From the NCBI GenBank assembly GCA_037783545.1, contig JBBELK010000972.1, forward strand, positions 186,001-250,000: a DNA stretch of 64,000 bases, read 5' to 3'. Positions within the stretch are counted from its first letter, which is position 1; each line of letters starts with the position of its first letter. Positions 39,971 to 64,000 of the stretch are shown piece after piece. The notes below the pieces were generated by a model that saw only the letters and a program-made list of their open reading frames with translations, searched no databases and was not told the DNA's origin. A program made the position numbers and the translations under genes. The stretch comes from Henricia sp. BOLD:AAB3569 (Eukaryota; Echinodermata; Asteroidea; Spinulosida; Echinasteridae).

Positions 39971-40341
39971 TTATTTTAATGTTAAAAAATACATTCATAA
40001 ATGCCTTAGACAGTTTACGCATCCTCATTGGCTGAGAACACATCACGTGGAACTCGCACACATACGCAGAAACTGCACGCTCCCGACAGCAAAATGTGCA
40101 CGTGACATCTACATCTACAACGCATTATACACGTAACGCGCGCGATCAAACAAACAACTCAACGCACATCTAGCAGTTTGAAGTACAAACAACAAGATTA
40201 TTGCAATGACAAGCTAATTTTGGTGAGTTTTACCGATTTACACAAAAATGTATTTATGAATGAGAATAAAAGTGGGTTTGGCCGGTCTTAAACAATCCAC
40301 TTAAAACTGGATAAGGGTCTAGACGCTGATAATGGCCCGCG
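39971..40341. other. Non-coding DNA, nothing recognised
   Basis: No gene seen; this is the left flank of the split-repeat element. Confidence 0.35.
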
Positions 40342-40403
40342 CTATTTGCACCACTCCTAAACGTTAGAGGGCGACGGCAACTATCAGTCAGAGATTTTAA
40401 CTG
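40342..40403 (+). repeat. A1 terminal direct repeat
   Basis: 62 bp beginning CTATTTGCACCACTCC and ending GATTTTAACTG, identical to 49269-49330. Flanking sequences on either side differ between the copies. Confidence 0.9.
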
Positions 40404-43400
40404 GAACGCGGAGGACGTCTCTCTGTAGGTCTCCGGGAATTTGGAACAGCAGCCACTGGGAAATCCAAAGGGCGTAACCGATAAGTTTTAGTATAGTAAT
40501 GGTGGTGGTGTTTTTAAAAAAAAAGACAATTTCTGGATAATATTAGTGAGATATTTTGGAAATTGTGTGAGGTTTTATTGAATTTTCGGTGCCGATATCG
40601 GTTTTGTACAACGTTGGTGAGGGTTGATTTTACCGTAGCACCAAACTACGGTCTCTGCCCTTTCGTTTTATTTCCCGGTCTTGATTACGCTACGGGAAAA
40701 TGTCGGTTAATCGTGTGGTTTTTCATGCGGCTTTGGGTATTATTATGCACGATATTGGTTTGAAAATTGCATGCAATTCGTGCAGGGCTGTTGGGAATGC
40801 ACCCCCATTTGTTCTTCGCGTTGTTTTCCTGCATTCCGCTCTACAAAATGTGCATACCAATGGGGTGCACAATTGCGGTGCATTCGAAATCGTGGCACGC
40901 AGCGCATGGCTTTGACGAACTCGGCACTACACGGCAAGTGAAAGAATCGTCAATGGTGGTGAGTAAGGCAAAAATGAGGAGTTTGCCCTGTCAAGACTAT
41001 TTTTGTAAAGGTGTCCCTTTCAGTGCTGAAACCCCTGTTCCGCACAAATTTTGCCTTGTTATGGGGTTTTCTCTTTTCTGCCTAATGGGAAAATTAGTGT
41101 TGGCATTACTTACCATGTTGCAGTTATATTTGCAGTTGTTTTTTAGTTTGTTTGTATCTCGGGAAGAATTTTTCATTTGACCGCGGCATGTTTTAACATG
41201 CGGTCATAACAAGGCAGACTCGAGGCGGTCACGTGTAAAATTATTCCCCTGTTTCATCCGCCGATTTTATTTCTGGACACCAACTAATGATACAAGTAAT
41301 TGGGGAAAGAATTGAGAAGTTGACCATGGCCTCGGGCCCTGTGAACAGACATTTGGGACAGGCTGAAATGTCTAGGTGTTTTATCCAAAATCAAATGTTC
41401 CCTCTCGAACATTGACCTTTCTTTCAATCCTTCGCTTGCAAAAAAAAAAAAAAAAATAATGCTTGATGAATCATTTTAAAGAAATGTCTGAGCAACTTCT
41501 CAAACTCTTACTGTGAGTTTGCTCAATTAAATGCTCGTCCATACTCGGCTCGTCGCATGGTTACATTTGACTGAGACTTCCCTTGCCTCTCAAAGGTTTG
41601 GTTTTCGCCATATTAACTGGAGGCGGTCATTCGTTACGCATCAAATGTTCCTCTTCTCAAAATTCAGTTTTAAAAGGGATTTGCGAAATGGCCAAAGGCC
41701 TCGTTAAATGTTTCAAACTGAAAAATCACGGTATTTGCCCTAACTAGGTATGGACATTTCACGGAAAGTGCCGTTAATATATATACTCTGCATCAGAGTC
41801 TGTCAGAACATTTTTCATCGCGTTGTGAGAATACATGTAGTTGGAAGGATTTCCTTTGAAAAAAAAAGGCCTATATAAGTCGATTTTCCTAAGTTTTCGG
41901 TTGTTTTACCTTTCGCAGATGTATTGGGCCCGTTATTTGAGTACAAGTGAGTTTAAGGAGGTGACTAATGGGTGGCCAATAGTTAATTCAATTTTAGTAG
42001 ACGTGTGCAATCGTGAGTGGTCCTATGCGATGTAGGTTAAAACAGAGCATACATGAAATGAGTAGCCCTATTTTAGTTGAAGTATAGTATCAGGCCGTAG
42101 ACCGTACATACGTAACCCCGACAACATACCGTAAGGGGTAATTAGTGAGTACGATGGGGACAGTTTGTGAAATGACCGTCAACACTGGAATGGTGTAGAC
42201 ATTTTGCGGTTTTCCTGTAAATGCATTTACACGCAACCGTTAATTGCGGCAGAAGCGTGGCAACTTTCGGGCATTTATTTACATAGCAGGATTAGTGTCG
42301 TATTTTGGGCGAAATAGGCCTAAATAGTTTGAGCCGATTATGTAAGTAGTTTCAGCCGAAGCAGTAATTTGAGGCAATTTGATGTTGTATGATTTCATGC
42401 AAGTTTTCTACTTTACCGATACAGATTCCCATATTCGGAGTCTCGCCCTACCCATGACACTGGATTCTACGTCCATCACCCAGAATGAAAAGACAAGATA
42501 GAGGGCTTCTTCTCGAGCTGTGACACAGGGTGACAATTAGGCGTCAAAGTGTGGCAGGTCCAGAACATACTGGGTTCTTTATACTCGGCCTTAGTGTCGA
42601 AAAGGAAATACAAAGTGTTTTGTGTGGGTGTGTTGAGTTATTCCACGGTGGTTTTTTGCGCAACGTACCTTAGCGCAGGTTCCTTAGCAGGAGTATGTCC
42701 CAAGTCCCCGTGGTCATGCCTTTTGGTTTAGTTTGGGTATTTGGTACCAAGAAAAGGCCCCGAAATACGGTTAATTCATATAAATGTGTTTTATACAATG
42801 TATTGAGCCCCTATGATTTTAAATGCCAAGTAAAATTGACCTACCTGGTTATCGAATTATTGTGTTTTGATTTTCAACGAAGAATACCTTGGGATTTGTA
42901 TAAAAAAAAAAAAATAAAAAAAAAAAAACACATTTAAACTTACAGGATAATTACGGTGTGGTACATTTGATATGCATTTTGATATCATCGCAAATGTTCA
43001 GCCCGCAAGGAAGCATGTTTCAGATAAGTCTGGAAGTACTGTCGAGGACGGGGGTCTCGGTTTTCTTTTTAGGGGTGAAATTTGCAAAGTGGCGCATGAC
43101 AGTTGGGGTCAGCCGCCAGGGAGAGGGATCTGCTACACTAACAGTGTAGTGGTGTTTTAAGGTTGAATATCAGGCTGTGTTCGTATTCGCGCGTCAATCG
43201 TGGAGGACGGCGATAAGTTAGCGTTTCAGCTCGTCAACCGCCCCTATGGCCATGCATTACCAGAGCGTGTTTTCACATTCTAAGGTGTCTATAGTAGCCA
43301 TGTAACATGTTAGCGCGGCAATATTCACAATTCGTTTGCATCATGGCTAGGAACGTTGAGCTGGTCACGGTGATCGGCGCACCGCGCTCGTTTAGTGGTA

Positions 43401-43920
43401 ACATACATTTTGTTTTAACCAGGGATCTGTTTTGAAAAACAGTCGCAGCATTTTCATATTGAATATCCTTAGTCGGATGAGCTGCGGTTGATTTTAGCGA
43501 AATGTAGTGGTCTTCTTCAGTCGCGAACACTTGTACTGTGTATATAAGTGTTCTCCCATAGGAATTGTGGGAGTTTTCAGCTGCGATTTTAAATAAATCT
43601 TTTGATAAATTTCGGACCAACGGAGAGGTTAGTTGTATTGTATGTGTGTCCCATTTATAGATTGAGTTATACTGGTAGGTTTACTGCTTGAGGCAATCTA
43701 TTCGCAGTGGCAATTTCATGAAAATGTGACGAGGGTTGGTGAGACCCCGTATCTCAGATATCCGCGTCTGGTTCTGGTGTCGGGCTGCGTAGCCAGTGGT
43801 GTACATGTAAGTAACCAACAGGACGTCGGCGAGGCTAATTGTTTCCGGTCCGTTCCCGGCTGCCTCTGCCTGTCACCGTTTGTGAACCGACCAGTCTGGT
43901 TACCGACGTGATATAAAGTC
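40404..43920. other. Interior of the split-repeat element, left part
   Basis: No coding region recognised. A-runs lie near 41443 and 42902-42930. The plus strand is rich in G and T. Scattered open frames (for example 40767-41180 and 43273-43620 on the minus strand) show no family motif. Confidence 0.4.
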
Positions 43921-43929
43921 ACTGACTCG

Positions 43930-44115
43930 CAATACTCGGGTGAAAACTTGAGGTTGCAGGTTCGAGAACCGTCTGGGGGCCTGTGCCTTAGAACAGGGCG
44001 CTTTAGCGCGTGTGCTCCATCCTTCGGATGGGATGCGCAGCTGTTGGTCTTGTGTGTTAAGAAACGCACTTTGGTGATCCCAGAGCATTATTTGGCGAAT
44101 TCAAGTGGCGGACGC
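43930..44115 (+). repeat. SINE copy
   Basis: GGTTCGAGAACC resembles a polymerase III B box. It is followed by AGGGCGCTTTAGCG, GCTCCATCCTTCGGATGGGA and AGCTGTTGGTCTTGTGTGTT, then a CACTTTGGTGATCCCAGAGC block. This order is common in SINEs of marine invertebrates. The A box is not clear, so the head is degraded. Confidence 0.65.
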
Positions 44116-45660
44116 TTGTATGGCACATGTCTGCACTGGGATGCTCCTGGTGCTGTTGCCATTAGCGTTGTCGATGCCATCAGAAGATCACCGGTACCAT
44201 TTCGCTTCAGCCAGGGCCCAGTTTCATTGAGCCGTTTGAGCGCTGGCTGAGGGCGTGTGCTTGCTGTGGCAGAAAGTTTAGGCCTTTTTGCAACCGCGGC
44301 GTGCTTGAGTGTGCGCGCGCTTGGGAACCGGCATTGTTGCGTCACTAGCTTGGTTAAGGCACGTTTCCAGTTTCTTACCATTAACGATGTCTATGAGATG
44401 TCCTGATGCTCGGTTAACGGAACGTGGGCGGTTGAACGGCTCTATAAATTTGGCCCCAAGTGGCCGCCTCGCTTGGGTGCCGATCCTGTCGGCGGTTGGA
44501 TTGTGGCATTTCCCCCTGGCAGCTCCCCCTATGTCGCCGGGGTTAGCGAGGTAGTTGGGATTGGGCGTCTTGCCCACGGACGAAAGTGGGGCTTTGACCC
44601 ACATAGCCCTTCGATCACGAGCATGGTTGTGTGGCTGCGGGACCCCTCGTGCTCCCAACGTCTCTCGTGAAGAGCTGGATAGGTAAGACTTGAGGCTGTG
44701 CATGGTGGTATCAACGCGTGTATGGGTTTACGGTAGCACCATGTGAACCTCTTTTGACTCGTGATGATGCAGGGCTATAAGTACTGGTTGAGGTCATTCA
44801 GTGTACAATGTGTGCACTGAAGCGGAATGGCTTGGATTGGTGAGGCGTGGTTGTGCTAGGATCCTAATCTTGTGGTTGGCTGTGGTGTGCTTATTGCCTT
44901 TTCCTCGTAGGTTTGCTAAGGCTTGCGAGCGAATGCAATGGGCACTTTGGATAAATCCTTTGTTTCAGTGCCAAAGTTTTATATGACTGGTCTCTATTTG
45001 AGGTCCGCAAATGCGCGGAATCTACGCTTTGTGAGAGAATGTCCATTTACCGGACGGGTTTACCTCTGTTTTGATACCAAAGGTCTTTATTCAAGGGAAT
45101 TTTACCTTTTCGCCTGGTGTTAGCGGACATGGTGCATGCGCCAATCTCAAGTCTTTTGTTGCGTTGATAGTTTTGGCGCGGATTTCAAATAGGGGAAGAA
45201 ACCTTAAGATTCCCAAATTTGAAAAGCACCAGATGGTTTCACATGTCGTATACACATGGCGCACCACGGTGGCATCTCATGGCCTAGGTCTAAGGCCTTA
45301 AGAATTTGTCCCTTTTGGCATTGTGCGGTACACCTATTCCCGCCCTTTTGTAATAATTCGGGCTGGTTACCGGAGATTTCGCAAGGGGATATCTCGTTAC
45401 CAGGGCCAGTGAGTAAGAGCCGCAGGTTTGGCCGTGTCGATGATAGAGACCCAGCTTTTGCCATGTGAGGGGAAGAGCCCAAGGTTTTGCCGTGTGTCTG
45501 AGGGGAAAAACCCCAGGTGTATAGACAGATAGATGGATTGATTAAACATTATTTTCCCACCCGGGAAAATCCAGTCGGCCTGTACCACAGATTTGAAATA
45601 TTACACTATGTATTTGTAAAACACACTATCATAAAGGAAAATTACTCAAATTGCTTATTA
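44116..45660. other. Interior of the split-repeat element, no gene recognised
   Basis: Degenerate forerunners of the minisatellite appear near 45420-45520 (GCCGTGTCGATG, GCCATGTGAGGGGAAGAGCC). Open frames at 44278-44703 have no recognisable domain. Confidence 0.35.
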
Positions 45661-46345
45661 GCCGTGAGAGAAAAATCCCTAGGCTACGGTTGGCCGTGTG
45701 AGGGGGAAAAAGCCCCATTGTTGGCCGTGTGATGGGAAAAAGCCCCATGTTTGGCTGTGTGAGGGGAAAAAGCCCCATGTTTGGCCGTGTGATGGGAAAA
45801 AGCCCCATGTTTGGCCGTGTGATGGGAAAAAGCCCCATGTTTGGCCGTGTGAGGGGAAAAAGCCCCATGTTTGGCCGTGTGAGGGGAAAAGCCCAAGGCT
45901 ATGGTTGGCCGTGTGAGGGAAAAAGACCCATGTTTGGCCGTGTGAGGGGGAAAAAGCCCCATTTTGGCCGTGTGAGGGAAAAGCCCAAGGCTATGGTGGG
46001 CCGTGTGAGGGGGGAAAAAGCCCCATTTTGGCCGTGTGAGGGGAAAAGCCCAAGGCTATGGTTGGCCGTGTGAGGGGAAAAGCCCCATGTTTGGCCGTGT
46101 GAGGGGGAAAAAGCCCCATTTTGGCCGTGTGAGGGAAAAAGCCCAAGGCTATGGTTGGCCGTGTGAGGGGAAAAGCCCCATGTTTGGCCGTGTGAGGGGA
46201 AAAGCCCAAGGCTATGGTTGGCCGTGTGAGGGGAAAAGCCCCATGTTTGGCCGTGTGAGGGGAAAAGCCCAAGGCTATGGTTTGGCCGTGTGAGGGGAAA
46301 AGCCCCATGTTTGGCCGTGTGAGGGAAAAAACCACATTTTGGCCA
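45661..46345 (+). repeat. 30-bp minisatellite, about 23 units
   Basis: Units of GGCCGTGTGAGGGGAAAA followed by GCCCCATGTTT or GCCCAAGGCTATGGTT. Two unit types alternate in the second half, giving a higher-order pattern of about 60 bp. More divergent units extend into 46346-46760. Confidence 0.95.
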
Positions 46346-49195
46346 GTGAGAGTAAGACCTCCATGTTTAACTCGTGTTTGACGCGAGAGGAAGATCCCCG
46401 AATGCGACAAGCTTACCGGTTCATACGACCGGAGTAAATCCCCGAGTGTCCATATATAGGGTCAAGTAGTTGCTGCCCTTCCTGGAGTACAGGTCGGCCC
46501 ATCCCAGGTCTTTCCTTCAACGGTGTTTACAGTCGCCCCAAATATTCACCGGTGCACTTTTTACACCTTGGTGAGGTGAATTATTTTCCAGGGACACGAT
46601 GCGACGGGATGACAGTGACCAGATCGATGGGAAGAGCCCCGTATGTCGTAACATGACAAATGCAGTCACCAGGGGGTGATATTAGAGAAGTTGAAGAGCC
46701 TCAAAGCTGAAGTATAAGGTACAGGCTCCAGATTGTCGCAAAGAGGGAAAAGCCCAAAGTGCACTTTAAGTGGTACATCGGTTCAGCATAACAAACATAG
46801 GGATATACACCCAGTAATTTTGAGAACACTTAGCTAAACTTAGCTAACTCCGTCACTAAGTGATAGCGGGTATAATATAAAAGTGTGAGCTAAATTTGCA
46901 TTGCGAATAACCTGCGTTTTGTAGAATCCCAGCGCAATGCGTGCAATTACCCTGGGGTTTTGACTAACGGTCTCGCAGGCGAAACCGATCGGTGGTGTTG
47001 ATGTCGGCAATGAAGGGCTCCGCATTGGAATTAAATATACAAATACCCCCAGATTGCATACAAAGCGGGAACCCCAATATAGGGGGTAGGCGCAAGAGGA
47101 AAGGCGCTGCCACTAAGCAGTGCCCAGGCGAAATACCAAGTAGCCGCGAGGGTTCGATGTGGAAGTAGATCCCTGAATTAAGGGTTCAGAGAATTGGCAC
47201 GGCATGAAAGGGAAAACCCTGCAACATGTTTATGTGGCTTGACCATGCAGTTATCGAGTGGTAACATTAGTTGGGTTGGGACTTGCAAGTACAAGCACCG
47301 CAGTCAAGCAGAATCGAGCCTCGTTCCCTCTCGCGTCGCTCATTATGTTCGTGGCGATTGGAGATATAATGGTAAAAGATGGGTGAAGTATGATTTTAAA
47401 AAAAAAAAACAAAAAAAAAAAAAAACCATTCGCTAGCAAGAACATAACGGAGTTGCTTTGCATGTCATTTGCGGCATTTGTAGCAAATTTTGTTTGAGTC
47501 AAGAGCTAGCGTCACTGTTTAACATGTAATGTTCTCTTTTGTTTTAAACTATAGGTTCCCTCTACGCCTGAACAGCGCCCTCTTGTGTTAGCAGAATGTT
47601 CAAACAGAAGAGTCATTTTCTTTCTCAAGAAAATATTGAGCCTGCCCTTTGCGACAATTTAATCTTTTAGTTCATACTCAGAGCCAAGTGGGTTTTAGTT
47701 TCCTTGGTCCAAAACCTTGGTCCAAGAAATGGTGGATTCACGAGGCATAAGCCTTCGGTTACGGTTCTCTCGGGGGTATATAAAACTATCGTAGTGAATT
47801 CGTCGCTCCTGTCTTTGTTGCCCAGACTATAATTCTGCTCCATCTTGTAACGACCCTCGACAACTCGCGGTTCGCATAGCAATTTCAATGTCCTGGGGGA
47901 TTGGGGTAGTACTGGCGTTGCAGATGCAGGTCAACCTGACCTATACCAGGTCAACTGAGAGCATCTTGTGCGTTTTGATCCACCTCGTATGTTTATATTC
48001 AATGTCTGTGGAAGATTCGAGTTCTTTGATTACACGAGTAGTGGTGTTTGTAGCTCGAAATAAACCATTCATTGATAATAACATGTTTTGTATTGAAATT
48101 CCAATAAGTTCAAAGTGTCATCTCAGTAAAGCATGGTCGAAAATAACATGTGCTTTTGTACATGTATAACGTAGCGGATTTGTAAGCAGAACTGCTGGCA
48201 TACGGCATGATGCGTATCGTCTCATCATTCCCAGACAATCACGGTTAATCCGTTCGTTTAGCGGCAAATCCCTCGAAGGACTATTCATAGAACAGGTTTT
48301 ATTTGTCACACACCCCCTTTCCGCATCACCCTATTGCGCCCTGTTTTGCTTTTAGCGTATACATGTAGGCTAATTAACGTGATCGGGCTTTTAGGCTTGG
48401 CCAATGGATGCGAAATATTTAGTCGCGGGTATAACAGGCGGGAGCATCCTTTTTTACAGGGCTCGAAGCTGCAAACTTTATTCGAGATTAGTTTTAAATG
48501 CCCTTTATCGCTTTGTTTTGTTGTGCAAGTTTTGAGATCGTCTTCACGTTTCAAATTTCATATTTTAGTTTTCTAAGTACATGATTTCGGCCACTGCCTT
48601 TGGTTCGGCTGCCGCTGATCAATCTACAAGCTGTGTTGACTGCCAGCCCTCTTCCGCCCTGCCTTTCCATCAATTTACCACATACACGCATCACAGTTTT
48701 GGGGAAGATACATAAAGTATGTAAGTTTGATGGTGATAGCAGAAAAGCAAGCTTTACTTATTTTTTGTTACTCCCATTGGGGTGTGATACCCCGCATCGG
48801 CTGGAAGGAAGGCGGTAGAAAGGTGCACATGCATACCCTATGGGAGTCAACGTTGTCATCATCTTCGCAAACCCGATAAGCATTGGGGTCAAGTATGTGT
48901 TTCGAGTTGATCGAGTATGGGTTTCGAGTTCATCGAGATGCGGGTGGAGGCGATATAAATGCTATGTCATCCATGTTCTGATGTGGCAGCATGCTTCGGC
49001 AGGTGCATGTGGTTAAGCTGGCGTCGAAATTTTTCGGGGGAAAAATTCTCGCATTTTAGTAAACAGTTTCTGACTTCGCCATCTATTAATTTAAGGATCG
49101 GGGTAAGGTATGGGATGAGATATGGGGTGAGTTTTAGGGTGGGGTTTAGTTCCGTGGTCCGTGGTCTACGACTCTGGGTAGGGTAGCGGGAGCAG
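46346..49195. other. Interior of the split-repeat element, right part
   Basis: No gene recognised. An A-rich run lies at 47397-47427. Nothing resembling a reverse transcriptase, RNase H or recombinase was found in any frame. Confidence 0.4.
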
Positions 49196-49269
49196 AAGCT
49201 TTTCTTACCCAGTCCTAAATCATAGGGACTGGAGCCCGAGACGTGAATGGAGTTATGCAGATAGTATAC
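49196..49269 (+). repeat. B1 direct repeat
   Basis: 74 bp beginning AAGCTTTTCTTACCCAG and ending GCAGATAGTATAC, identical to 49481-49554. Its last base is the first base of A2. Confidence 0.9.
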
Positions 49270-49330
49270 TATTTGCACCACTCCTAAACGTTAGAGGGCG
49301 ACGGCAACTATCAGTCAGAGATTTTAACTG
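49269..49330 (+). repeat. A2 direct repeat
   Basis: 62 bp identical to A1 at 40342-40403. Confidence 0.9.
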
Positions 49331-49480
49331 AGAAGAAGGTGTAAGGAGCGTAAGTATGGTGCAGGTACGTGTAAGAAAGATAAGGGAGGTAAGTTGGACT
49401 CCCTTTTTTTTGTTTCTCCCCGCCCGCCCGCCCCTTCATTTTGCACTCATTACGTACTCGAGCTCCAGTCTCTACTCGCA

Positions 49481-49554
49481 AAGCTTTTCTTACCCAGTCC
49501 TAAATCATAGGGACTGGAGCCCGAGACGTGAATGGAGTTATGCAGATAGTATAC
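49481..49554 (+). repeat. B2 terminal direct repeat
   Basis: 74 bp identical to B1. The spacer between A2 and B2 (49331-49480) is unique and includes a T- and C-rich stretch. Confidence 0.9.
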
Positions 49555-50239
49555 CATTTACTTTCAAAAATGTATGTGATGTCATATACAGGTTTTTTCA
49601 CCAAACGTAATATAGATCCTTTACAGGGGCGACCATGACGGGGTTGGGCAGTCACATTGTCACCGTGTCTCATGCACAAGTAGGCACTTTGTGGATCTAT
49701 TGTCACGTCATTCAAATATGAAACCTGTCCCCTGTCATGGCCGCCGGTGCAAAGAGTCTATAGCTGTACCTAAAAGCTGGATATATTTCCAAAACTGCTT
49801 GGGTTGTTACTGAAGCACGACGCTTTGCACCCGGGCGTTATTTTCAATTGATAACACAGGTCTTCAAAAGTTTACCTTCAAAAATGTTGCACTTTGGTAA
49901 ATTATTTGCGCTTTATGCGCACGGGGTCTCGCGACTAGTGGTAAACACGGGAAATCACGACGAATGGACAGCCGAAGTATGACGTCGTTGCCATGGTAAT
50001 TGGCTCTATAAACATCATGGCCGTCGGAAAAGGTACCATTGCAAAAGCACAGTGAGAGTTCAGTGATTTGCAGTGTAGAGCCATTGCTAAGACAACGAAA
50101 CATGACGTATTCACCGGCAGACTATATGGGCACTCTCCCTAAATTTCCCCCCGTTACTGAAAACTAATATGTACCAACTCAGAGTACACTATCATTTTAG
50201 AGCATTTTATCACTTTTTCAGTCTGATGCATGTTATTAA
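49555..50239. other. Non-coding DNA with a dispersed repeat
   Basis: 49970-50125 resembles 1450-1600 (shared GTTGCCAYGGTAATT, AACATCATGGC, AAAAGCACAG, TGACGTATT). A weak inverted pair CCATGACGGGG / CCCCTGTCATGG lies at 49625-49745. Confidence 0.55.
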
Positions 50240-53043: not shown

Positions 53044-53284
53044 AGGGAGCTCTGCACACGCTGCAGGGGTGTCATGTGTTTTCGATGAGCAGGAAATGGC
53101 CAGTTAGAAGACGGCTTCGGCATAATTTGGTTTCTTATAACTGATTTATCTCTTATTCTAAAGTATGAGTAAGTAATTATTTTTAGGGATTATGACCCAG
53201 GGACCGCCGGGGTGAATACATTTGATACAAATGTGGACAAATGTCCATGAGTTTGGGAAATCTGGATGCAGTGAAAAGCAACTT
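53044..53284. other. Body of a possible tRNA-derived SINE
   Basis: On the minus strand this follows the tRNA-like head at 53285-53357. It has no other recognised feature. Confidence 0.35.
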
Positions 53285-53357
53285 GGCTCCACCAAGATTC
53301 GAACCGCGGACCTTCTGCTTAACGTACAGACGGCCCTACCAATTGAGCTATAAAGCC
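53285..53357 (-). tRNA. tRNA-like sequence, degraded or SINE head
   Basis: 73 nt that fold partly as a tRNA. The acceptor arms GGCTTTA and TGGAGCC pair fully with two G-T pairs, the A box TAGCTCAATTGGTAGG and B box GGTTCGAATCT are good. The anticodon stem pairs only over four bases with a nine-base loop, and the T stem has a mismatch. It is therefore probably a tRNA pseudogene or the head of a SINE and not a working tRNA. I do not assign an amino acid. Confidence 0.55.
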
Positions 53358-53643
53358 AACTGGTGGTCTCGAATCACGGTAGTGCACCCCACCCTTTGGG
53401 AGGGATGGATATCTCACTGAAGGGTTTGTATAAGACTTGCTATACTCGCATGATAGCCAACCCCAATCAGTGAGGAACAACTGCACCACTAATTTAATTT
53501 GTACATTGAAAAACTGCTTTAATATTTGATAAGCCCTATCGGTTTTAGTTGATATTTAGATGCCGATATGATCTATATCGGCAAAATGCTGATATTAACG
53601 GAGCTTATTGTCTACTCAGTGTTAGACTCTGATGTGTACTCAC

Positions 53644-53991
53644 CAGTATGTTCCTGCTCTGATGTGCTTGTATCCTTTATAGATCCTGACTGGTGGCTAG
53701 ATTCTCCATCATACGAGTTTTGGTAGTCGTTCTTCTCCAAGGTTTCCATAAGGACTTGCCATGTAGCTTCATCTCCCATCTTCCTTTGCCAAGTACAGAG
53801 CGCCTGATACCTCTGCTCCACTGGCTGCTGTGGATAACTCTCCTCAATGTCCCCAATTAGAACGCTGACTGGCTGCTGCCCAGAGTAGTTGGACAAAAGG
53901 TCTCTTAAGACACACCTCCATTTCTTTGCATGCATGCAGTCGGCGAACCTCTTCAAGACAGCTGGGCTCAAACGCTGGTCTTCTGTTTCAC
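53644..53991 (-). CDS. Death-domain-like exon, unit 1
   Basis: A 348-nt exon bounded by an acceptor (TACCAG, 53997-53992) and a donor (GTGAGT from 53643). It starts and ends in phase 1. It reads LSPAVLKRFADCMHAKKW, RCVLRDLLSNYSGQQPVS, VLIGDIEESYPQQPVEQRYQ and ALCTWQRKMGDEATWQVLME, then a linker rich in S, T, E and Q (HQSGSIKDTSTSEQEHTG). The pattern of a helix ending in ALCTWQ, then A-T-W-x-x-L-x-x-x-L-E-K, is that of the second half of death domains. The first in-frame ATG is inside the exon and is not a start. The second unit encodes the same exon with serine replaced by proline in YQNSYDG. The products would probably act in death-domain signalling (inferred). Confidence 0.75.
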
Positions 53992-54440
53992 CTGGTACGG
54001 GATAATATGTATACGGAAAGCACCATCAGAAAGACAACTGATTTTGAAGGGTACTTTTAAAAATAACTAATATTCTAGACTATATTTGCCAGTAGGCTTT
54101 TTTTCCCCAACCCACAGCCGTATCAGGATAAAATTAGTGCTTAAGGGGTGCCCTGTCATACATGTACATTCCGGTTGGACCAAGTGTGTCCTGGAGTAGT
54201 CCTGTTAGGGTCGACCACAGTTTTGGGCTTTTAATTGGCTCCAAACCGGGATGAATTTCTTATCTCACAATCCCACCAAAGAAAGCTGGGAAGAGAGCAG
54301 CTGGAAAGACTAAGGGCAAGTCCAATGCCCCAAGAAACGGCAGTGTCCTGGCTTCGATAGGATTATGCAAGGATGCACTATTATAATAGGGGCCCCCAAT
54401 AAGCCACTATGGTCTCAGATCGTGCACCAAATGACTTTAA

Positions 54441-54631
54441 AGAGGAAGAATCCCCTTAAAGAAAATCCAGCATTTAGGCTTTTTTTCGATAGTCCAAACA
54501 TCCCTCTTGCCGACGTGGATTTTTATTATGTTTTTATTGTCGGTGTTAAGTGGATAAATTGCAAGCAAAAGTGCGCTTTTCGAAAATGAGGTTTTCGCGA
54601 TTTCTGAAACGCTCATTAGGTATTCATGATA
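54441..54631 (+). mobile_element. Truncated copy of the 12378-13372 TTAA element, unit 1
   Basis: Begins at a TTAA (54437-54440) with AGAGGAAGAATCCCC and matches the family for about 190 bp, ending at a deletion junction. Confidence 0.85.
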
Positions 54632-54825
54632 CAATTTATTGTTAGTTTATGCATAATGCACAAATACAATGGAACTAATTAGCATACCAATGTAACCTAG
54701 TAGATATTCATATATAATTACCATGTGAATGGTAGGTCATGAGGTCACGATGAATATGTATGCGTTAATGAATATGTACGATATTGGATGTGGGTAATGA
54801 ATATGGATGAGGAGTGATGGTATGG

Positions 54826-55015
54826 GCCAATGAGAAGCTTGGGATTGATGAGACAGATTATGCAAGCGTGGGTTTAGGGGGCCAATGAGAAGCTTTGGCT
54901 TGATGAGACAGATTATGCAAGCGTGGGTTTAGGGCTAATGAGAAGCTAGGGTTTGATGAGACAGATTATGCAAGCGTGGGTTTAGGGCCAATGGGAAGCT
55001 TGGGATTGATGGGAT
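54826..55015 (+). repeat. Tandem repeat of about 55 bp, four units, unit 1
   Basis: Units of CCAATGAGAAGCTTGGGATT then GATGAGACAGATTATGCAAG and CGTGGGTTTAGGG. A relative occurs at 58832-58925. The second duplication unit has the same array at about 60878-61070. Confidence 0.9.
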
Positions 55016-55079
55016 GATTTTGCACAATAATTTTAAAGCAGGTGGATTTGGAATAGGTCAATGGGATGCGATGCGTCAT

Positions 55080-56110
55080 TAAAAATCTACCAATCAAATT
55101 AAATTGCCAACATTAAATTTAGCCAATCAGCTTCAATGCATCATTTAAAATTAACCAATCGTTGACATGTTTGAATTTGGACCAATGATATTCAATGCAA
55201 CATCTAAAATTAACCAATCGTTGGCAACTTTCATTTCAACCAATCCTATTTACTGCATCATTTGAAATTAACCAATCGTTTACATGTTTGAATTTCAATC
55301 AGTCATATTCAGTGCATCATTTGGAATTAAGCATTCGTTTGCACGTTTGAATTTTAACCAATCATATTCAGCGCATCATTTAAAATTAACTAATCGTTTA
55401 CATGTTTGAATTTCAACCAATCCTATTCAATGCATCATTTGAAATTAACCAATCGTTTACATGTTTGAATTTCAACCAAAGTTATTCAGTGCATCATTTG
55501 AAATCATCCAATCAATTTTAAAATTTTTTAGTTCAGTCAATCTGATTTTGACGCGTCATTTAAATATTGCAAAACATTATTTTTAAAAATAAACACAAAA
55601 ATAAATAAATAAGTAAACAAATTATTTAAACCAATCAGATTCAGTGATCGTTTAAAAATAGCAAAACCGTTTTAAAAGTCAAATTAAAACAAGTGGATTA
55701 TATGCGTCTATTAAAATTATAGCCAATAGTTGGTAACTTTAAATTCACGTGTATCGTTTAAAATTAGCCAATCGTTGTTAACATTGAATTGAGCCAAACA
55801 GATTCATGCATCATTTAAAATTACGCAAAAATTAACCAATCGTCGGAAACTTTCGTTTCCACCAATCATATGCTATTCAGTGCCTCGTTGTAAAATAGCC
55901 AATCGTTGTCAATATTGAATAGAGCCAGATGGATTCATGCATCATTTAAAATTACGCAAAAATTAACCAATCGTCGTAAGCTTTCATTTCCACTAATCAT
56001 ATGGTATTCAGTGCCTCATTTGAAATTACTCAATCGTTACATGTTTAAATTTCAACCAAACATATCCAGTACATCAATTTAAATTAACCAATCATCTAAA
56101 AAATTGAATT
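55080..56110 (+). repeat. CCAAT-bearing satellite of about 60 bp, unit 1
   Basis: Degenerate units around AATTAACCAATCGTTTACAT, GTTTGAATTTCAACCAATC and ATTCAGTGCATCATTTGA. Nearly every unit contains one or two CCAAT pentamers. No coding capacity. Confidence 0.9.
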
Positions 56111-58619
56111 GTACCAGACGGCTGTAGTGCATCCACATTGTAAATATATTCGATAGTTTTCGGGTTTAAATGTCAGCTACTCCTAAAGTCATTAAATACA
56201 AAGGCGTCTTTGCACATGGCTTCCTAATGTATTTCCACTCACCATACAAGCTCCAAGAGCAATTTTCCTTGACGCATGTGAAACGTTGATGAACCGGAAC
56301 ATGGTAAAAATCCTCCCCATCGAAAATGTACCATGACTCCGCTACCCGCTAACACACCGAAACAGACGGGAAAAATATATCTCCCATATACACATTGTCT
56401 TGTGTGTGCTTGAACAGGAGAATTTGAACTGCTACAAGAACTGAATCGGCGAACGGGGTTGGTAGCATCTTCCATTTGGTGGGGACATTTTTCACACGTA
56501 TTATCCGCCCCTGTTTTTCACACCATTTTCAGTACACATAGTTAAGAGATTACGTGACTGCCCGCTTCATTGTCCGATAGAGGATTCAGGGTATGACCAC
56601 CGACAATGGACACGATCGATATTGAATGGACCGTGTTATACCATTAACGATAATTACCCTTCATTGGTCTCAATGGGGATTAACCTATTGACACGTATTT
56701 TGTCTCATCAATATTTCAGGTTTCAATTGAGTATTATACACGAGTGTCTCATAAAGTTATCTAGCTCGCTCTACAAACAATAGACAGGGACTCCGCTGGT
56801 ACCAGTGCAAGTCCTAGCGACCCCCAAACAAACGTTTATTTTCCTAGCAACACATCGGAGTTGTTGACATTGCGTACGCATGAGGAGTGACAAAAAATTG
56901 CGTCATCAATATGTTTTTCAAACTTAATATGTCGGCGCTTTTCCCACGGATGATTGTATCTTTTTCTCGATGTTTTTGTTCTCTTGTCCGATGGTGAAAC
57001 GTTCAGAGTGGTGAACTGTCAGTGGTAGGAGACGTCACATCATTAATATAATTAAATCGACACTAGTTCCGCTGTACTTATACCAAAGTCAATGTGTTTT
57101 TAAGAGACATTGTTACGGTGGCTGTTTTTCTGTAAAGGACGACAACACAACTAAATTATTAAAGTGTGATGGTCACAATAGCACTTAAGATAGAGAAGTA
57201 TTTTAAACAAGCACTTCCCTAAATAACGGAGAATGAGTTTTAGGATAGAGCGGCACCTAAAAGCATGAGACATTGCACGGATTTTGTCGAAATACCCATT
57301 GACCAACATGTCAACATACCCGGGAAAAACCCTGTTAATATGCCCTATTCCAAAAGTTAATCACAAGCTCTGTTTTGTTTTGTCGTAACCTGATCATCAC
57401 TCGTTAAAAATAAAATTCTGTTCAGTACTTTTTTTCCGGTTGTACACATATTTACATTTGTTTGTTGTTGTTTTTAAAGTTTGTTCATCAATTTTGTTTA
57501 CACTCATTTACTCAAGCCATTTTTCTGGTATGTTAAATTTTTCGTAAGTTAGGTGTGTATATTAAACTTCTTTTTCTTTCTTTCTTTTTTAGATATGTAC
57601 ATTGATTAAAAATAATAATAATAATACAAATTGTAAAGTATACGTTATAGACTTTGTATTTTGTTAGTTTGTGTAAAAACATGTTGCGTGTTGGTTTGAT
57701 AAAAAACTTTAAATTTGTTTGAGGAGGAAAAAATAGATATAGCTAAAAGAAGAAAAAACTTATAACAGTGTACCACTGGAACAAATTGCTTAAAATCAAT
57801 GCGTTTGTGAACAAATGCCGTTTTTTTTTTCTTTAGAGTATTGATAAGTTTCGACCACGGAGAATTACTTAAAAACCACGTACAATTACCTGAGTCGCGA
57901 TCGAAAGCGGACTGGATAGTGTTGACAAATTGTACCGCGTTGCAAAACAAGATGGAAAGTACCGTATAGCGCGCCGAAAAAAATAAAATAAGTTTTCAGA
58001 AGACAAGGTACGTACACGGTACAACAAACCCGCGTGAAAAAAAAATAACTGGAAATTGTAGCTTTAACAGTCGGTTGAGATAAAACAAATCTCATAAGAC
58101 TAATTAACGTTATTTTGACTAATTCATGTTTGCAGTGTATGGAATAACTCTTTTCAACCCGTTATGCACTATACATGTATGCAGTGTAGCGCGCTTCGAA
58201 AATTAACGGATATGTGGTCCTAAAAATAAATGCATGACGGAATGCTTAGTGATATTTCAAACAACGGTATAGCCGGTCATCGTATTTAATTTTTGTATGT
58301 GGAATATGTGGAGCGTGAACCAGGCCACCACCGAGACGGTTAGGAAAAATATTACATCATAATTGTCACGCATATAATCTAAAAAACACTTGCCGACAAA
58401 AACAAAACAAAATATGTACGTACGCGTACTATCTTACTCCCCTAATTACAGAGTTTTGTTTTACACTTTCAATACATATATGTAATGAAGAGATTGTACG
58501 ACCGTTCCCTATTTACTATCCCATGAAGGATGCGGGGGCTATCACCCCGCAATGGCCGTAATGTTAGTGATGAGATCCTGTAACCAGTACATTTCACAAA
58601 AGAAAAGCAATGCTAAACC
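56111..58619. other. Non-coding part of duplication unit 1
   Basis: No gene recognised. (AAT)5 lies at about 57610-57626. The motif TGTGGAATATGTGGA, shared with 21240, 21730 and 36828, occurs near 58300. The duplicate of 56111-57948 is at about 62166-64000. Confidence 0.45.
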
Positions 58620-58800: not shown

Positions 58801-59403
58801 GGCTTGATAGACATATGCGTTGATGTGACATAGAGCCAATGAGAAGCGTGGGTTTGATTGTACAGAATATGCATCAATTAACGTGAGCCACCGAGAACCG
58901 CGGGCTTCATGAGACAAACTTATGCCAAGACGAAGAAATGAAACTTGGAGCAATCATATCATTACATTCTTTGAATAAACCATTGATTTTTAAGGATGCT
59001 ATCGGAGAAAGTGCGTAAAGCGTATTTAAGAGCTAGGTTAGAGCGCTGAAAATCATCAAATATTGGAGTCGACATTGTCGTAGTTATCATCATCATCAGC
59101 AGTAATATCAGCACCAAGACCAAGACCAAGATCAAGCCAGCATGGCCCACTCATCTACACCATACTGGATATCTCACTGAAGGGTTTGTATAAGACTTGC
59201 TATACTCGCATGATAGCCAACCCCAATCAGTGAGGAACAACTGCACCACTAATTTAATTTGTACATTGAAAAACTGCTTTAATATTTGATAAGCCCTATC
59301 GGTTTTAGTTGATATTTAGATGCCGATATGATCTATATCGGGAAAATGCTGATATTAACGGAGCTTATTGTCTACTCAGTGTTAGACTATGATGTGTACT
59401 CAC

Positions 59404-59751
59404 CAGTATGTTCCTGCTCTGATGTGCTTGTATCCTTTATAGATCCTGACTGGTGGCTAGATTCTCCATCATACGGGTTTTGGTAGTCGTTCTTCTCCAA
59501 GGTTTCCATAAGGACTTGCCATGTAGCTTCATCTCCCATCTTCCTTTGCCAAGTACAGAGCGCCTGATACCTCTGCTCCACTGGCTGCTGTGGATAACTC
59601 TCCTCAATGTCCCCAATTAGAACGCTGACTGGCTGCTGCCCAGAGTAGTTGGACAAAAGGTCTCTTAAGACACACCTCCATTTCTTTGCATGCATGCAGT
59701 CGGCGAACCTCTTCAAGACAGCTGGGCTCAAACGCTGGTCTTCTGTTTCAC
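59404..59751 (-). CDS. Death-domain-like exon, unit 2
   Basis: Second copy of the exon at 53644-53991, with the same acceptor and donor, the same 348 nt and phase 1 at both ends. Only a few base changes separate them inside the exon, one of which changes Ser to Pro in the YQNxYDG stretch; neither copy has a stop or frameshift. If both are spliced into one transcript, the domain would be present twice in tandem without loss of frame. Alternatively the two units could be separate genes. The rest of the gene would lie beyond the window on the right. Confidence 0.75.
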
Positions 59752-60199
59752 CTGGTACGGGATAATATGTATACGGAAAGCACCATCAGAAAGACAACTG
59801 ATTTTGAAGGGTACTTTTAAAAATAACTAATATTCTAGACTATATTTGCCAGTAGGATTTTTTCCCCAGCCCACAGCCGTATCAGGATAAAATTAGTGCT
59901 TAAGGGGTGCCCTGTCATACATGTACATTCCGGTTGGACCAAGTGTGTCCTGGAGTAGTCCTGTTAGGGTCGACCACAGTTTTGGGCTTTTAATTGGCTC
60001 CAAACCGGGATGAATTTCTTATATCACAATCCCACCAAAGAAAGCTGGGAAGAGAGCAGCTGGAAAGCCTAAGGGCAAGTCCAATGCCCCAAGAAACGGC
60101 AGTGTCCTGGCTTCGATAGGATTATGCAAGGATGCACTATTATAATAGGAGCCCCCAATAAGCCACTATGGTCTCAGATCGTGCACCAAATGACTTTAA

Positions 60200-60643
60200 A
60201 GAGGAAGAATCCCCTTGACGAAAATCCAGCATTTAGGCTTTTTTTCGATAGTCCAAACATCCCTCTTGCCGACGTGGATTTTTATTATTTTTTTATTGTC
60301 GGTGTTAAGTGGATAAATTGCAAGCAAAAGTGCGCTTTTCAAAAATGAGGTTTTCGCGATTTCTGAAACGCTCATTAGGTATTCATGATATGCGCGTGAC
60401 CCCGTGACGCAATCCTGAGAAAGAGAAGTCAACACGATTGTTAGCTCCGTACGTTTACACACAAAAAACTTGGAAAACCGTCTCTGCAGCCCAGTAGCTG
60501 CGTGGTTGTATGTTTTACCAGACACTATGAAAAAAAAGAGCAGAAAGATTTTCTTTTCTATTACATGTACCAAGAGAGAGAGAAAAAATTTGTCGTGCAT
60601 TATATAACTTGTACGGCCGATGTTCAAACACGTGGGAACTACG
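60200..60643 (+). mobile_element. Truncated copy of the 12378-13372 TTAA element, unit 2
   Basis: Begins at TTAA (60196-60199) and matches the family over about 440 bp, to near GTGGGAACTACG. The last third of the element is missing. This longer copy shows that unit 1 lost sequence after the duplication. Confidence 0.85.
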
Positions 60644-60877
60644 CCCGCAGGGGACCGTAAGTAGTGTGTAGGGTCTTGATGAGACAATTTATTGTTAGTT
60701 TATGCATAATGCACAAATACGATGGAACTAATTAGCATACCAATGTAACCTAGTAGATATTCATATATAATTACCATGTGAATGGTAGGTCATGAGGTCA
60801 CGATGAATATGTATGCGTTAATGAATATGTACGATATTGGATGTGGGTAATGAATATGGATGAGGAGTGATGGTATG

Positions 60878-61070
60878 GGCCAATGAGAAGCTTGGGATTG
60901 ATGAGACAGATTATGCAAGCGTGGGTTTAGGGGGCCAATGAGAAGCTTTGGCTTGATGAGACAGATTATGCAAGCGTGGGTTTAGGGCTAATGAGAAGCT
61001 AGGGTTTGATGAGACAGATTATGCAAGCGTGGGTTTAGGGCCAATGGGAAGCTTGGGATTGATGGGATGA
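60878..61070 (+). repeat. Tandem repeat of about 55 bp, unit 2
   Basis: Same array as 54826-55015. Confidence 0.9.
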
Positions 61071-61136
61071 TTTTGCACAATAATTTTAAAGCAGGTGGAT
61101 TTGGAATAGGTCAATGGGATGCGATGCGTCATTAAA

Positions 61137-62165
61137 AATCTACCAATCAAATTAAATTGCCAACATTAAATTTAGCCAATCAGCTTCAATGCATCATTTA
61201 AAATTAACCAATCGTTGACATGTTTGAATTTGGACCAATGATATTCAATGCAACATCTAAAATTAACCAATCGTTGGCAACTTTCATTTCAACCAATCCT
61301 ATTTACTGCATCATTTGAAATTAACCAATCGTTTACATACAATCAGTCATATTCAGTGCATCATTTGGAATTAAGCATTCGTTCGCACGTTTGAATTTTA
61401 ACCAATCATATTCAGCGCATCATTTAAAATTAACTAATCGTTTACATGTTTGAATTTCAACCAATCCTATTCAATGCATCATTTGAAATTAACCAATCGT
61501 TTACATGTTTGAATTTCAACCAAAGTTATTCAGTGCATCATTTGAAATCATCCAATCAATTTTAAAATTTGTTAGTTCAGTCAATCTGATTTTGACGCGT
61601 CATTTAAATATTGCAAAACATTATTTTTAAAAATAAACACAAAAAAAAAAAATAAGTAAAAAAAATTAATTAAACCAATCATATTCAGTGATCGTTTAAA
61701 AATAGCAAAACCGTTTTAAAAGTCAAATTAAAACAAGTGGATTATATGCGTCTATTAAAATTATAGCCAATAGTTGGTAACTTTAAATTCACGTGTATCG
61801 TTTAAAATTAGCCAATCGCTGTTAACATTGAATTGAGCCAAACAGATTCATGCATCATTTAAAATTACGCAAAAATTAACCAATCGTCGGAAACTTTCGT
61901 TTCCACCAATCATATGCTATTCAGTGCCTCGTTGTAAAATAGCCAATCGTTGTCAATATTGAATAGAGCCAGATGGATTCATGCATCATTTAAAATTACG
62001 CAAAAATTAACCAATCGTCGTAAGCTTTCATTTCCACTAATCATATGGTATTCAGTGCCTCATTTGAAATTACTCAATCGTTACATGTTTAAATTTCAAC
62101 CAAACATATCCAGTACATCAATTTAAATTAACCAATCATCTAAAAAATTGAATTGTACCAGACGG
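61137..62165 (+). repeat. CCAAT-bearing satellite, unit 2
   Basis: Same array as 55080-56110, with a 9- to 10-bp deletion near 61338 and a few base changes. Confidence 0.9.
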
Positions 62166-64000
62166 CTGTAGTGCATCCACATTGTAAATATATTCGATAG
62201 TTTTCGGGTTTAAATGTCAGCTACTCCTAAAGTCATTAAATACAAAGGCGTCTTTGCACATGGCTTCCTAATGTATTTCCACTCACCATACAAGCCCCAA
62301 GAGCAATTTTCCTTGACGCATGTGAAACGTTGATGAACCGGAACATGGTAAAAATCCTCCCCATCGAAAATGTACCATGACTCCGCTACCCGCTAACACA
62401 CCGAAACAGACGGGAAAAATATATCTCCCATATACACATTGTCTTGTGTGTGAGTTGTGAGAGCTTGAACAGGAGAATTTGAACTGCTACAAGAACTGAA
62501 TCGGCGAACGGGGTTGGTAGCATCTTCCATTTGGTGGGGACATTTTTCACACGTATTATCCGCCCCTGTTTTTCACACCATTTTCAGTACACATAGTTAA
62601 GAGATTACGTGACTGCCCGCTTCATTGTCCGATAGAGGATTCAGGGTATGACCACCGACAATGGACACGATCGATATTGAATGGACCGTGTTATACCATT
62701 AACGATAATTACCCTTCATTGGTCTCAATGGGGATTAACCTATTGACACGTATTTTGTCTCATCAATATTTCAGGTTTCAATTGAGTATTATACACGAGT
62801 GTCTCATAAAGTTATCTAGCTCGCTCTACAAACAATAGACAGGGACTCCGCTGGTACCAGTGCAAGTCCTAGCGACCCCCAAACAAACGTTTATTTTCCT
62901 AGCAACACATCGGAGTTGTTGACATTGCGTACGCATGAGGAGTGACAAAAAATTGCGTCATCAATATGTTTTTCAAACTTAATATGTCGGCGCTTTTCCC
63001 ATGGATGATTGTATCTTTTTCTCGATGTTTTTGTTCTCTTGTCCGATGGTGAAACGTTCAGAGTGGTGAACTGTCAGTGGTAGGAGACGTCACATCATTA
63101 ATATAATTAAATCGACACTAGTTCCGCTGTACTTATACCAAAGTCAATGTGTTTTTAAGAGACATTGTTACGGTGGCTGTTTTTCTGTAAAGGAAGACAA
63201 CACAACTAAATTATTAAAGTGTGATGGTCACAATAGCATTTAAGATAGAGAAGTATTTTAAACAAGCACTTCCCTAAATAACGGAGAATGAGTTTTAGGA
63301 TAGAGCGGCACCTAAAAGCATGAGACATTGCACGGATTTTGTCGAAATACCCATTGACCAACATGTCAACATACTCGGGAAAAACCCTGTTAATATGCTC
63401 TATTCCAAAAGTTAATCACAAGCTCTGTTTTGTTTTGTCGTAACCTGATCATCACTCGTTAAAAGTAAAATTATGTTCAGTACTTTTTTTCCGGTTGTAC
63501 ACATATTTACATTTGTTTGTTGTTGTTTTTAAAGTTTGTTCATCAATTTTGTTTACACTCATTTACTCAAGCCATTTTTCTGGTATGTTAAATTTTTCGT
63601 AAGTTAGGTGTGTATATTAAACTTCTTTTTCTTTCTTTCTTTTTTAGATATGTACATTGATTAAAAATAATAATAATAATACAAATTGTAAAGTATACGT
63701 TATAGACTTTGTATTTTGTTAGTTTGTGTAAAAACATGTTGCGTGTTGGTTTGATAAAAAACTTTAAATTTGTTTGAGGAGGAAAAAAAGATATAGCTAA
63801 AAGAAGAAAAAACTTATAACAGTGTACCACTGGAACAAATTGCTTAAAATCAATGCGTTTGCGAACAAATGCCTTTTTTTTTCTTTAGAGTATTGATAAG
63901 TTTCGACCACGGAGAATTACTTAAAAACCACGTACAATTACCTGAGTCGCGATCGAAAGCGGACTGGATAGTGTTGACAAATTGTACCGCGTTGCAAAAC
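62166..64000. other. Non-coding part of duplication unit 2
   Basis: No gene recognised; near-identical to 56111-57948. Confidence 0.45.

Follow-up and report, generated by a model that had tools for sequence, protein, structure and literature searches.

A 9.2-kb element in the genome of the sea star Henricia sp. is, in all likelihood, a non-autonomous tyrosine-recombinase retrotransposon of the DIRS order, with split direct repeats in a PAT/Ngaro-type layout, mobilised in trans. It belongs to a real, recently active, dispersed family. Its movement probably depends on a tyrosine recombinase that related retrotransposons, which do carry genes, supply from elsewhere in the genome. An unusually large non-autonomous tyrosine-recombinase element with split repeats had been proposed in an earlier note made from the sequence alone, and this proposal is supported by the layout, the copies, the empty sites and the relatives of the internal junction.

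Layout and coding content of the element

The element was analysed within a 64-kb stretch of a Henricia sp. contig, hereafter the window. Exact matching confirmed what had been claimed of its repeats: A1 and A2 are identical over 62 bp and B1 and B2 over 74 bp, the order is A1…B1-A2…B2, and a single base, the C at 49269, is common to B1 and A2. The features are as follows.

40335..40341, no strand: left host flank ending at the insertion point, GCCCGCG (from the empty-site comparison)
40342..40403, forward strand: A1, left terminal repeat, 62 bp, identical to A2; begins with the right arm of the recombination site
40404..49195, no strand: body, ~8.8 kb, apparently non-coding (no Pfam domain), conserved between copies according to copy alignments
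45690..46352, no strand: minisatellite within the body, ~30-bp unit, ~21 copies
49196..49269, forward strand: B1, internal copy of the right terminal repeat, 74 bp, identical to B2 and co-varying with it between copies
49249..49284, no strand: putative recombination core spanning the B1-A2 junction, imperfectly palindromic, GGAGTtaTGCAgATAG-TATA-CTATtTGCAccACTCC (from palindrome score, fold and nine other families)
49269..49330, forward strand: A2, internal copy of the left terminal repeat, 62 bp, identical to A1
49331..49480, no strand: A2-B2 spacer, 150 bp, present in 7 of the 20 fetched loci (L009-L028) at 90-95% identity
49481..49554, forward strand: B2, right terminal repeat, 74 bp, identical to B1
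49555..49561, no strand: right host flank starting at the insertion point, CATTTAC (from the empty-site comparison)

The element starts with CTATTTG and ends with GTATAC. If one mismatch is allowed, the B1/B2 match stretches to 79 bp. The lengths of both exact matches are far above the chance expectation for random sequence. Matches of such length are not unique in the window, which holds 53 exact repeats of at least 40 bp with copies more than 200 bp apart; among the 25 longest are the B pair and 20 repeats that belong to a single large duplication unrelated to the element.

The minisatellite noticed earlier is indeed part of the element, and the interior, which had looked non-coding, appears so in domain searches as well. 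Pfam gave no match at E<=10 for the three forward frames, with stops read as X, and nothing below E 0.26 for the three reverse frames. Single short frames produced only sub-threshold matches, namely to EELM2 (frame 49332-49607, E 0.0036, 17.7 bits against a cut-off of 27) and to NOA36 (E 0.12). The frame matching EELM2 extends beyond the end of the element. As for the SINE that the earlier note had placed in the interior, Rfam found no tRNA match within the element, so that its presence is no more than a suggestion. Since reverse transcriptase, RNase H and tyrosine recombinase are not encoded by it, as judged from Pfam in six frames and from comparison with partner pieces, it could belong to the DIRS order only in a non-autonomous form.

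Copies elsewhere in the genome

Other copies sharing the ends, which the earlier note had suggested looking for, are abundant. The first 109 bp of the element occur in at least 40 places including the window (best 40 of 93 candidates), 20 of them at 100% over the whole query, and a 1.1-kb piece of the body has at least 40 matches at 89-100% (best 40 of 321 candidates). From the 39 other A1 places listed, the 20 next in rank (L009-L028) were fetched, and six of these have the complete A1…B1-A2…B2 layout, as does the window copy. The bodies of these seven full copies show ungapped pairwise identities of 97.3-99.0%, and 400-bp bins covering the minisatellite align at 92-99% in the six other full copies. 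Because the ends recur together in other copies, we rejected the idea that A and B are independent short repeats.

The copies also differ in structure. Plain A...B without A2...B2, followed by non-element sequence, was found in 4 of the 20 fetched copies (L009, L016, L019 and L028), two of which stop 4 bp early. In four structures A2...B2 is joined directly to the body, at CTATT, CTATT, CTAAT or TAGT, and in three loci it is inverted relative to the body. Among 12 A2...B2 units in 11 fetched loci, none lies in plain host DNA with its two ends complete. The alleles of B1 and B2 at position 59 agree (T/T, A/A or G/G) in all nine copies compared, and the B1/B2 mismatch is 0.33 within a copy versus 1.06 between copies (permutation p 0.00085, with copies treated as independent).

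Insertion sites and target

An empty site joining 40341 to 49555, another thing that the earlier note had proposed to search for, is present elsewhere in the assembly, on contig C921. It reads GCCCGCG-C-CATTTAC, with a single C at the join and no target duplication. Since a 1-kb query from the neighbouring sequence had no match on C921 among the best 40 of 2518 candidates, C921 may carry either an allele or a duplicate of the locus. The left flank of the window copy sits in a dispersed repeat. A second copy (L024) lies within a dispersed repeat, and elsewhere this repeat runs through the insertion point without a break: for its joined flanks, the best 40 of 546 candidates all span the join, 39 over query positions 1-243 and one over 1-242, eight of them at 100%. 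Insertion without target-site duplication, with a short overlap at the circular junction, is therefore seen in two copies, the overlap being one C in the window copy. We also identified a target bias: of 18 distinct left flanks, 12 have an A in front of the C (p 9e-4), and TA follows the C in 6 of 9 cases (p 5e-6), both patterns having been chosen after looking. This preference mirrors the junction's own ACTAT.

The B1-A2 junction and its gene-carrying relatives

The B1-A2 junction is an inverted-arm site, to which a recombinase would bind. Its core pairs at 15 of 18 positions, the top score for any 36-bp palindrome in the window (at 28 bp another scores higher), and its fold has a z of -4.7. 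With up to 3 mismatches it occurs at 193/191 places versus 0/1 for a reversed control, where a near-palindrome may count on both strands. Inverted-arm junction sites are also found in nine further families, and the arms co-vary between families: over the outer 11 nt of the arms in ten families, 68 of 110 positions match between an arm and its true partner, versus 47.4 when partners are swapped, and none of 50000 shuffles reaches 68.

In seven of the nine further families (III, IV and subfamilies b, c, d, f and i), open frames with an ALOG domain adjoin the junction sites. These relatives resemble the window family in having split direct repeats and a junction with TGCAAATAG-NNNN-CTATTTGCA-type inverted arms, but they carry open frames and their A and B sequences have diverged. 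The 424-aa frame beside the family IV site has an ALOG domain at E 2.9e-18 and matches an ALOG protein in PDB at E 1.2e-5. Of its 109 matches in the genome, 24 cover at least 400 of the 424 residues without a stop, and 40 share the same tally of six stops, counted irrespective of position. Judging from its sequence, we take the ALOG-domain protein to be a putative tyrosine recombinase; it contains an HGGR...HCRW...HYT motif, which we assume to be the catalytic part, and Pfam, NCBIfam and PDB searches reported no recombinase catalytic domain in it. Families III and IV have RNase H-like, SGNH-hydrolase-like and ALOG frames, the RNase H and hydrolase matches being below the curated cut-offs (E 1.2e-5 for the SGNH-like domain). 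A methyltransferase-like domain lies downstream of RT/RNase H in PAT but not in Ngaro; Pfam reported none in the partner pieces, and one stretch may resemble such a domain.

The PF00589 profile, used to search the genome for a partner, gave 141 matches among 474 candidates. Among the matches listed, none lies within ~1.5 kb of a listed junction site by eye, and the model does not recognise the ALOG frame; the partner was therefore sought through matches to the ALOG frame. Ten PF00589 loci of 3.5 kb each (L040-L049) contain no palindrome above 13 of 18 pairs, and no resemblance was found between the ALOG frame and PF00589-type frames at two loci. The earlier note had envisaged a full-length, recombinase-encoding partner with the same A and B. 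What emerged were relatives with the same kind of junction beside ALOG frames, none of which shares A and B exactly. Subfamily d is the closest of them in sequence (77% over 106 columns at the B1-A2 junction and tail). Because the body of the element has no significant homology to the sampled partner pieces, its descent from an autonomous element is unproven.

Comparison with known elements

TOC1 of the green alga Chlamydomonas is non-coding, has split 76-bp repeats and an internal tandem array, and is ~5.7 kb long. The element is like it in layout, with non-coding sequence, split repeats and a tandem array. In an excerpt of PMC7722844, TOC1 is called a retrotransposon-like element. According to excerpts of PMC9210276, PMC4157794, PMC6681497 and PMC8547959, Ngaro, PAT and VIPER have the A1-[body]-B1A2B2 layout and encode gag, RT/RH and YR; the window element has the same layout but no recognisable genes, and its A1/A2 repeats measure 62 bp versus the 236 bp given for a Xenopus Ngaro in part of PMC9210276. 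SIRE, described in part of PMC6681497 as a non-autonomous derivative of VIPER, is likewise a non-autonomous split-repeat derivative and corresponds to A2-B2, but it measures a few hundred bp and has no large body. In an open-licence library, no paper contained any of the terms 'non-autonomous DIRS', 'nonautonomous DIRS', 'non-autonomous Ngaro' or 'TOC1 transposon'. The gene-free 9.2-kb element is new and unusually large among split-repeat non-autonomous kinds such as SIRE and TOC1.

Alternative explanations

The element might instead be a Crypton-like, DNA-only mobile circle, with A...B (8.9 kb) as the unit, A2...B2 (286 bp) as a second short unit in tandem at the junction, and no reverse transcription. 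Precise, duplication-free insertion, the four plain A...B copies, the four direct joins of A2...B2 to the body and its three inversions are all in line with this. However, plain A...B copies are also explicable by recombination between B1 and B2, no intact-ended A2...B2 unit in plain host DNA was seen among the 12 units of 11 fetched loci, B1 and B2 alleles agree within copies, and the four-part layout recurs in seven copies and in related families, some of them with RNase H-like (below cut-off) and ALOG frames. Cryptons are DNA transposons that encode a tyrosine recombinase and lack RT; with no recombinase in the element and RNase H-like sequence (below cut-off) in a related family, membership among them was rejected. 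We consider a DNA-only circle unlikely.

It is far less probable still that a single autonomous element decayed in place and lost its genes by mutation. Broken copies do exist in related families, as the 40 of 109 recombinase-frame matches with the six-stop tally illustrate, but the body is common to the family copies and lacks significant homology to the partner pieces, which argues that the family spread in gene-free form. A head-to-tail Helitron, another transposon class or chance short repeats deserve almost no credence. Tandem A...B A...B does look like a head-to-tail insertion, and B alone may form a small hairpin, albeit one not clearly better than shuffles (z -1.0). However, Helitrons insert between A and T (or T and T) and have 5'-TC and CTRR-3' ends, from which both the ends and the empty sites of this element differ; Helitron, LTR and DDE classes all fit poorly with the ends, the duplication-free empty sites with C and the palindromic junction. 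Chance repeats are contradicted by A and B not being independent of each other. We rejected the decayed single copy, the Helitron and chance repeats alike.

Proposed cycle and implications

For the preferred reading, a non-autonomous retrotransposon mobilised in trans, the following cycle can be suggested. Transcription would run from within A1 into B2, and an autonomous relative would supply the reverse transcriptase and RNase H that copy the RNA, as in the published DIRS-type model, with the internal B1-A2 junction serving as the template that completes both ends of a DNA circle. The matched B1/B2 alleles fit such an RNA step, and they could also stem from gene conversion or common ancestry. 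The inverted arms, brought together in the circle, would then be bound by the relative's ALOG-type recombinase, and recombination of the circle junction across the common C, with a short genomic site resembling ACTA, would insert the element without duplication or loss. This outcome is observed at base level in two copies, and the recombinase would be its presumed agent. The plain A...B copies and the two ends lying 4 bp early are not predicted by a simple retrotransposition model. It is tempting to speculate, though we find it rather doubtful, that a 9.2-kb circle with two cores (B1-A2 and B2-A1) is resolved by the recombinase into 8.9-kb and 286-bp A...B circles, or undergoes inversion of A2...B2 or deletion to CTAT-like sites, and that the conserved non-coding body is retained because its RNA has a function, for example in packaging.

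In the excerpts of the literature at hand, target choice and cutting by tyrosine-recombinase retrotransposons have so far mostly been argued from layout. Here, one genome supplies base-exact empty sites for two copies, an inverted-arm core co-varying over ten families and an ACTA target bias. Deletions and inversions break at the same core, and cores of this type have open ALOG frames next to them. Taken together, these features allow integration to be tested directly on a short DNA site. The element also documents that the DIRS order has a 9-kb passenger devoid of genes. If the resolution of two-core circles were true, a retrotransposon family would spread and reshape itself also through DNA-only site-specific recombination.

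Structure and coding content of the element

The element lies at 40342-49554 of the window in the order A1-body-B1-A2-spacer-B2, and the repeats on which the earlier note had built its reading are exact: the left repeat A1 (40342-40403) is identical to A2 (49269-49330) and the right repeat B1 (49196-49269) to B2 (49481-49554), with B1 and A2 having base 49269 (C) in common. The minisatellite noted in the interior was located at 45690-46352, and the proposed absence of visible genes was borne out in that Pfam recognised no protein domain there. With stops read as X, the plus frames gave no match at E<=10 and the minus frames none under E 0.26, while matches of short single frames were all sub-threshold. 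We then compared eleven frames of at least 90 aa outside the minisatellite with six other full copies; none resembles a transposon protein. Three are listed below, and the remaining eight show more kinds of breakage among the full copies. Such frames may have weak coding potential.

Frames of the element compared with the six other full copies
43719-44087, minus strand: frame kept in 6/6; stop in one copy
48262-48573, plus strand: frame kept in 6/6; stop in one copy
44281-44727, minus strand, 149 aa: stop-free in 6/6; out-of-frame length change in one

Other features of the window were also recorded.

Features outside the element
4000-8043, minus strand: two long open frames, of 560 and 627 aa, separated by one of 159 aa; neither long frame has a Pfam match over the cut-off, and the 560-aa frame has, by eye, a Cys-rich CXC-like stretch close to its end
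24109-27159, plus strand: LINE-like open frame of 1016 aa that carries endonuclease and reverse transcriptase domains
49611-49762: 33-nt inverted repeat, 79% complementary, immediately right of the insertion
53284-53357, minus strand: tRNA-like match (RF00005, 36.4 bits); ARAGORN with bacterial settings reports no tRNA here
53406-57948 and 59166-64000: the two copies of a large direct duplication, offset by about 5.8-6.05 kb and sharing identical blocks as long as 617 bp

Copies and insertion sites

The element is a family and not a singleton. In the 740.7-Mb assembly (2104 contigs; window at 186001-250000 of contig C972), its first 109 bp gave 40 scored matches of 93 candidates, window included, 20 of them at 100% along the entire query. 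The B1-A2 junction is present in its full length at 13 places and partially at one (42 matches; 40 of 161 candidates scored). We examined 21 copies, namely the window and the next 20 by rank (loci L009-L028), among which L018 duplicates L014 and L025 duplicates L012, as judged by the left flank. Seven are complete, four are plain A...B copies, one has an inverted right part, and nine lack B within the 10 kb fetched. The complete copies are 97.3-99.0% identical with gaps excluded; with gaps counted, BLAST gives lower values, some stretches falling to about 84-88%. According to match coordinates, A1-to-B2 spans range from about 4.1 kb (contig C258) to about 17.5 kb (C154), and in the copies read, length varies through indels, duplications and insertions. 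A PF00589 recombinase frame (G000:C860:13157-13654) lies about 1.7 kb past the end of the copy on C860, probably by coincidence. The 5S-like and LINE sequences met in the assembly point tentatively to an animal source.

Insertion was resolved at the nucleotide level for two copies. The joined window flanks match contig C921 continuously at 96%, and the empty site read directly there, GCCCGCG-C-CATTTAC, differs from the filled site, GCCCGCG|CTATTTG...GTATAC|CATTTAC, by leaving one C at the join, with zero duplication and zero loss; this site may be allelic to the window or lie in a duplicated locus. Independently, the copy at L024 interrupts a dispersed repeat (LINE-like by eye), and its joined flanks were continuous over the join in 40/40 scored places (546 candidates), 39 spanning query 1-243 and one 1-242, eight at 100%. 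With two duplicates and the C-less L028 set aside, 12 of the 18 distinct left flanks have an A ahead of the C; TA comes after it in 6 of 9 right flanks. Both biases were picked post hoc from flanks already inspected; the target therefore resembles the junction's own ACTAT. In the window, the left flank (40200-40346) is formed by one end of a roughly 145-bp dispersed repeat that matches more than 30 other places at about 90%, the match extending about 4-5 bases beyond the insertion point.

Recombination core

The B1-A2 junction is the centre of the window's best 36-bp palindrome (15 of 18 pairs); among 28-bp palindromes three other places outscore it. Its 22-bp core, a near-palindrome countable on both strands, occurs with <=3 mismatches at 193 forward and 191 reverse places; the reversed pattern gives 0 and 1. 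All twelve core loci fetched, drawn from the first places listed, contain an internal pair of direct repeats, each about 75-85 bp long and about 250-345 bp apart, as expected for B1/B2; one of the twelve, L060, was identified through alignment to family III, not the core pattern. We compared ten families, taken from core-pattern loci and from junctions behind recombinase-type frames (L065, L069 and L071, three of eight fetched tails, had no clean core and were left out). The inner 9 nt of the arms are biased because families II-V were found by the palindromic core pattern, whereas the outer 11 nt lie outside it. In these, the left arm matches its own family's right arm at 68/110 positions versus 47.4 with arms exchanged among families, and 50000 shuffles gave no value as high, the ten families being mutually related and not independent samples.

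Rearrangements and mode of transposition

We surveyed A2...B2 scars in eleven fetched loci comprising 12 units. B1 precedes two units (L038, L039), three are cut within or ahead of A (L033, L035, L036), and in five units at four loci the body is joined directly to A2 at the core.

Body-A2 joins
L030: CTATT
L031: CTATT
L032, twice: CTAAT
L034: TAGT

The remaining two units (L029, L037) have A2...B2 in inverted orientation to the body and a shortened B, as does L013 (8386-8720). Deletions and inversions at the palindromic core fit recombinase action, although the deletions may instead reflect microhomology-mediated deletion.

B position 59 is T, A or G across copies, yet B1 equals B2 within each copy (9/9), and for all differences together within-copy matching has a permutation p of 0.00085. 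Matched alleles are predicted by a DIRS-type model, where completion of the element ends would use the internal junction; gene conversion could also produce them. A simple DIRS-type model does not predict the plain A...B copies (4 of the 20 fetched), nor the ends of two of these, L009 (9217) and L028 (7868), which stop at GATAGT, 4 bp short; L028 is in addition missing the first C of A1. Both kinds may have arisen by recombination between B1 and B2 or by integration of sub-circles, and the short ends may reflect crossover on the opposite side of the core.

Gene-carrying relatives

In families III and IV, the 2.8 kb upstream of B1 holds long open frames: an RNase H-like frame (PF17917, E 0.0017) and an SGNH/GDSL-hydrolase-like frame (PF13472, E 1.2e-5), both below cut-off, and an ALOG-domain frame of 424 aa (PF04852, E 2.9e-18; with an ALOG protein as PDB match, E 1.2e-5). 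Its HGGR...HCRW...HYT would correspond to the catalytic motif of the family; Pfam, NCBIfam and PDB searches reported no catalytic domain. According to PMC3537659, ALOG domains are relatives of the DNA-binding domains of tyrosine recombinases, themselves bind DNA, and occur in DIRS1-type retroposons.

The ALOG protein has 109 matches in the genome (685 candidates, 99 scored), 24 of them stop-free over at least 400 residues and falling by eye into about ten subfamilies. Forty each total six stops, compared by number only, and three of these (C43, C56, C62) lie, by coordinates, about 340 bp from junctions of family II, a multiplied split-repeat family (e.g. L062, L053). It therefore seems that family II multiplied in an already broken state, which speaks for trans mobilisation in this group. 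Among the families compared, subfamily d (L068) comes nearest to the window family, matching it at 77% along 106 columns of B1-A2 and at 70% along 132 columns of the A2-B2 part. Separately, loci L044-L047 carry four PF00589 matches of equal score in 397-aa frames; the tandem array adjoining the L047 copy looks like 5S rDNA, and these loci are possibly a second, 5S-targeted recombinase element group.

Relation to known elements

To our knowledge, the window element is unusually large among non-autonomous members. TOC1 of Chlamydomonas is a non-autonomous relative with split repeats and an internal tandem array. In the literature, TOC1 is termed retrotransposon-like (PMC7722844), SIRE is a non-autonomous relative (PMC6681497), an amphioxus Ngaro-like element has unusually arranged split direct repeats (PMC2632668), and DIRS1-like elements integrate through a circle junction with zero target duplication (PMC3266345). 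As described in PMC4157794, PMC8547959, PMC6681497 and PMC9210276, the layout of the window element is shared with Ngaro, PAT and VIPER. The window element is best read as a non-autonomous member of this kind.
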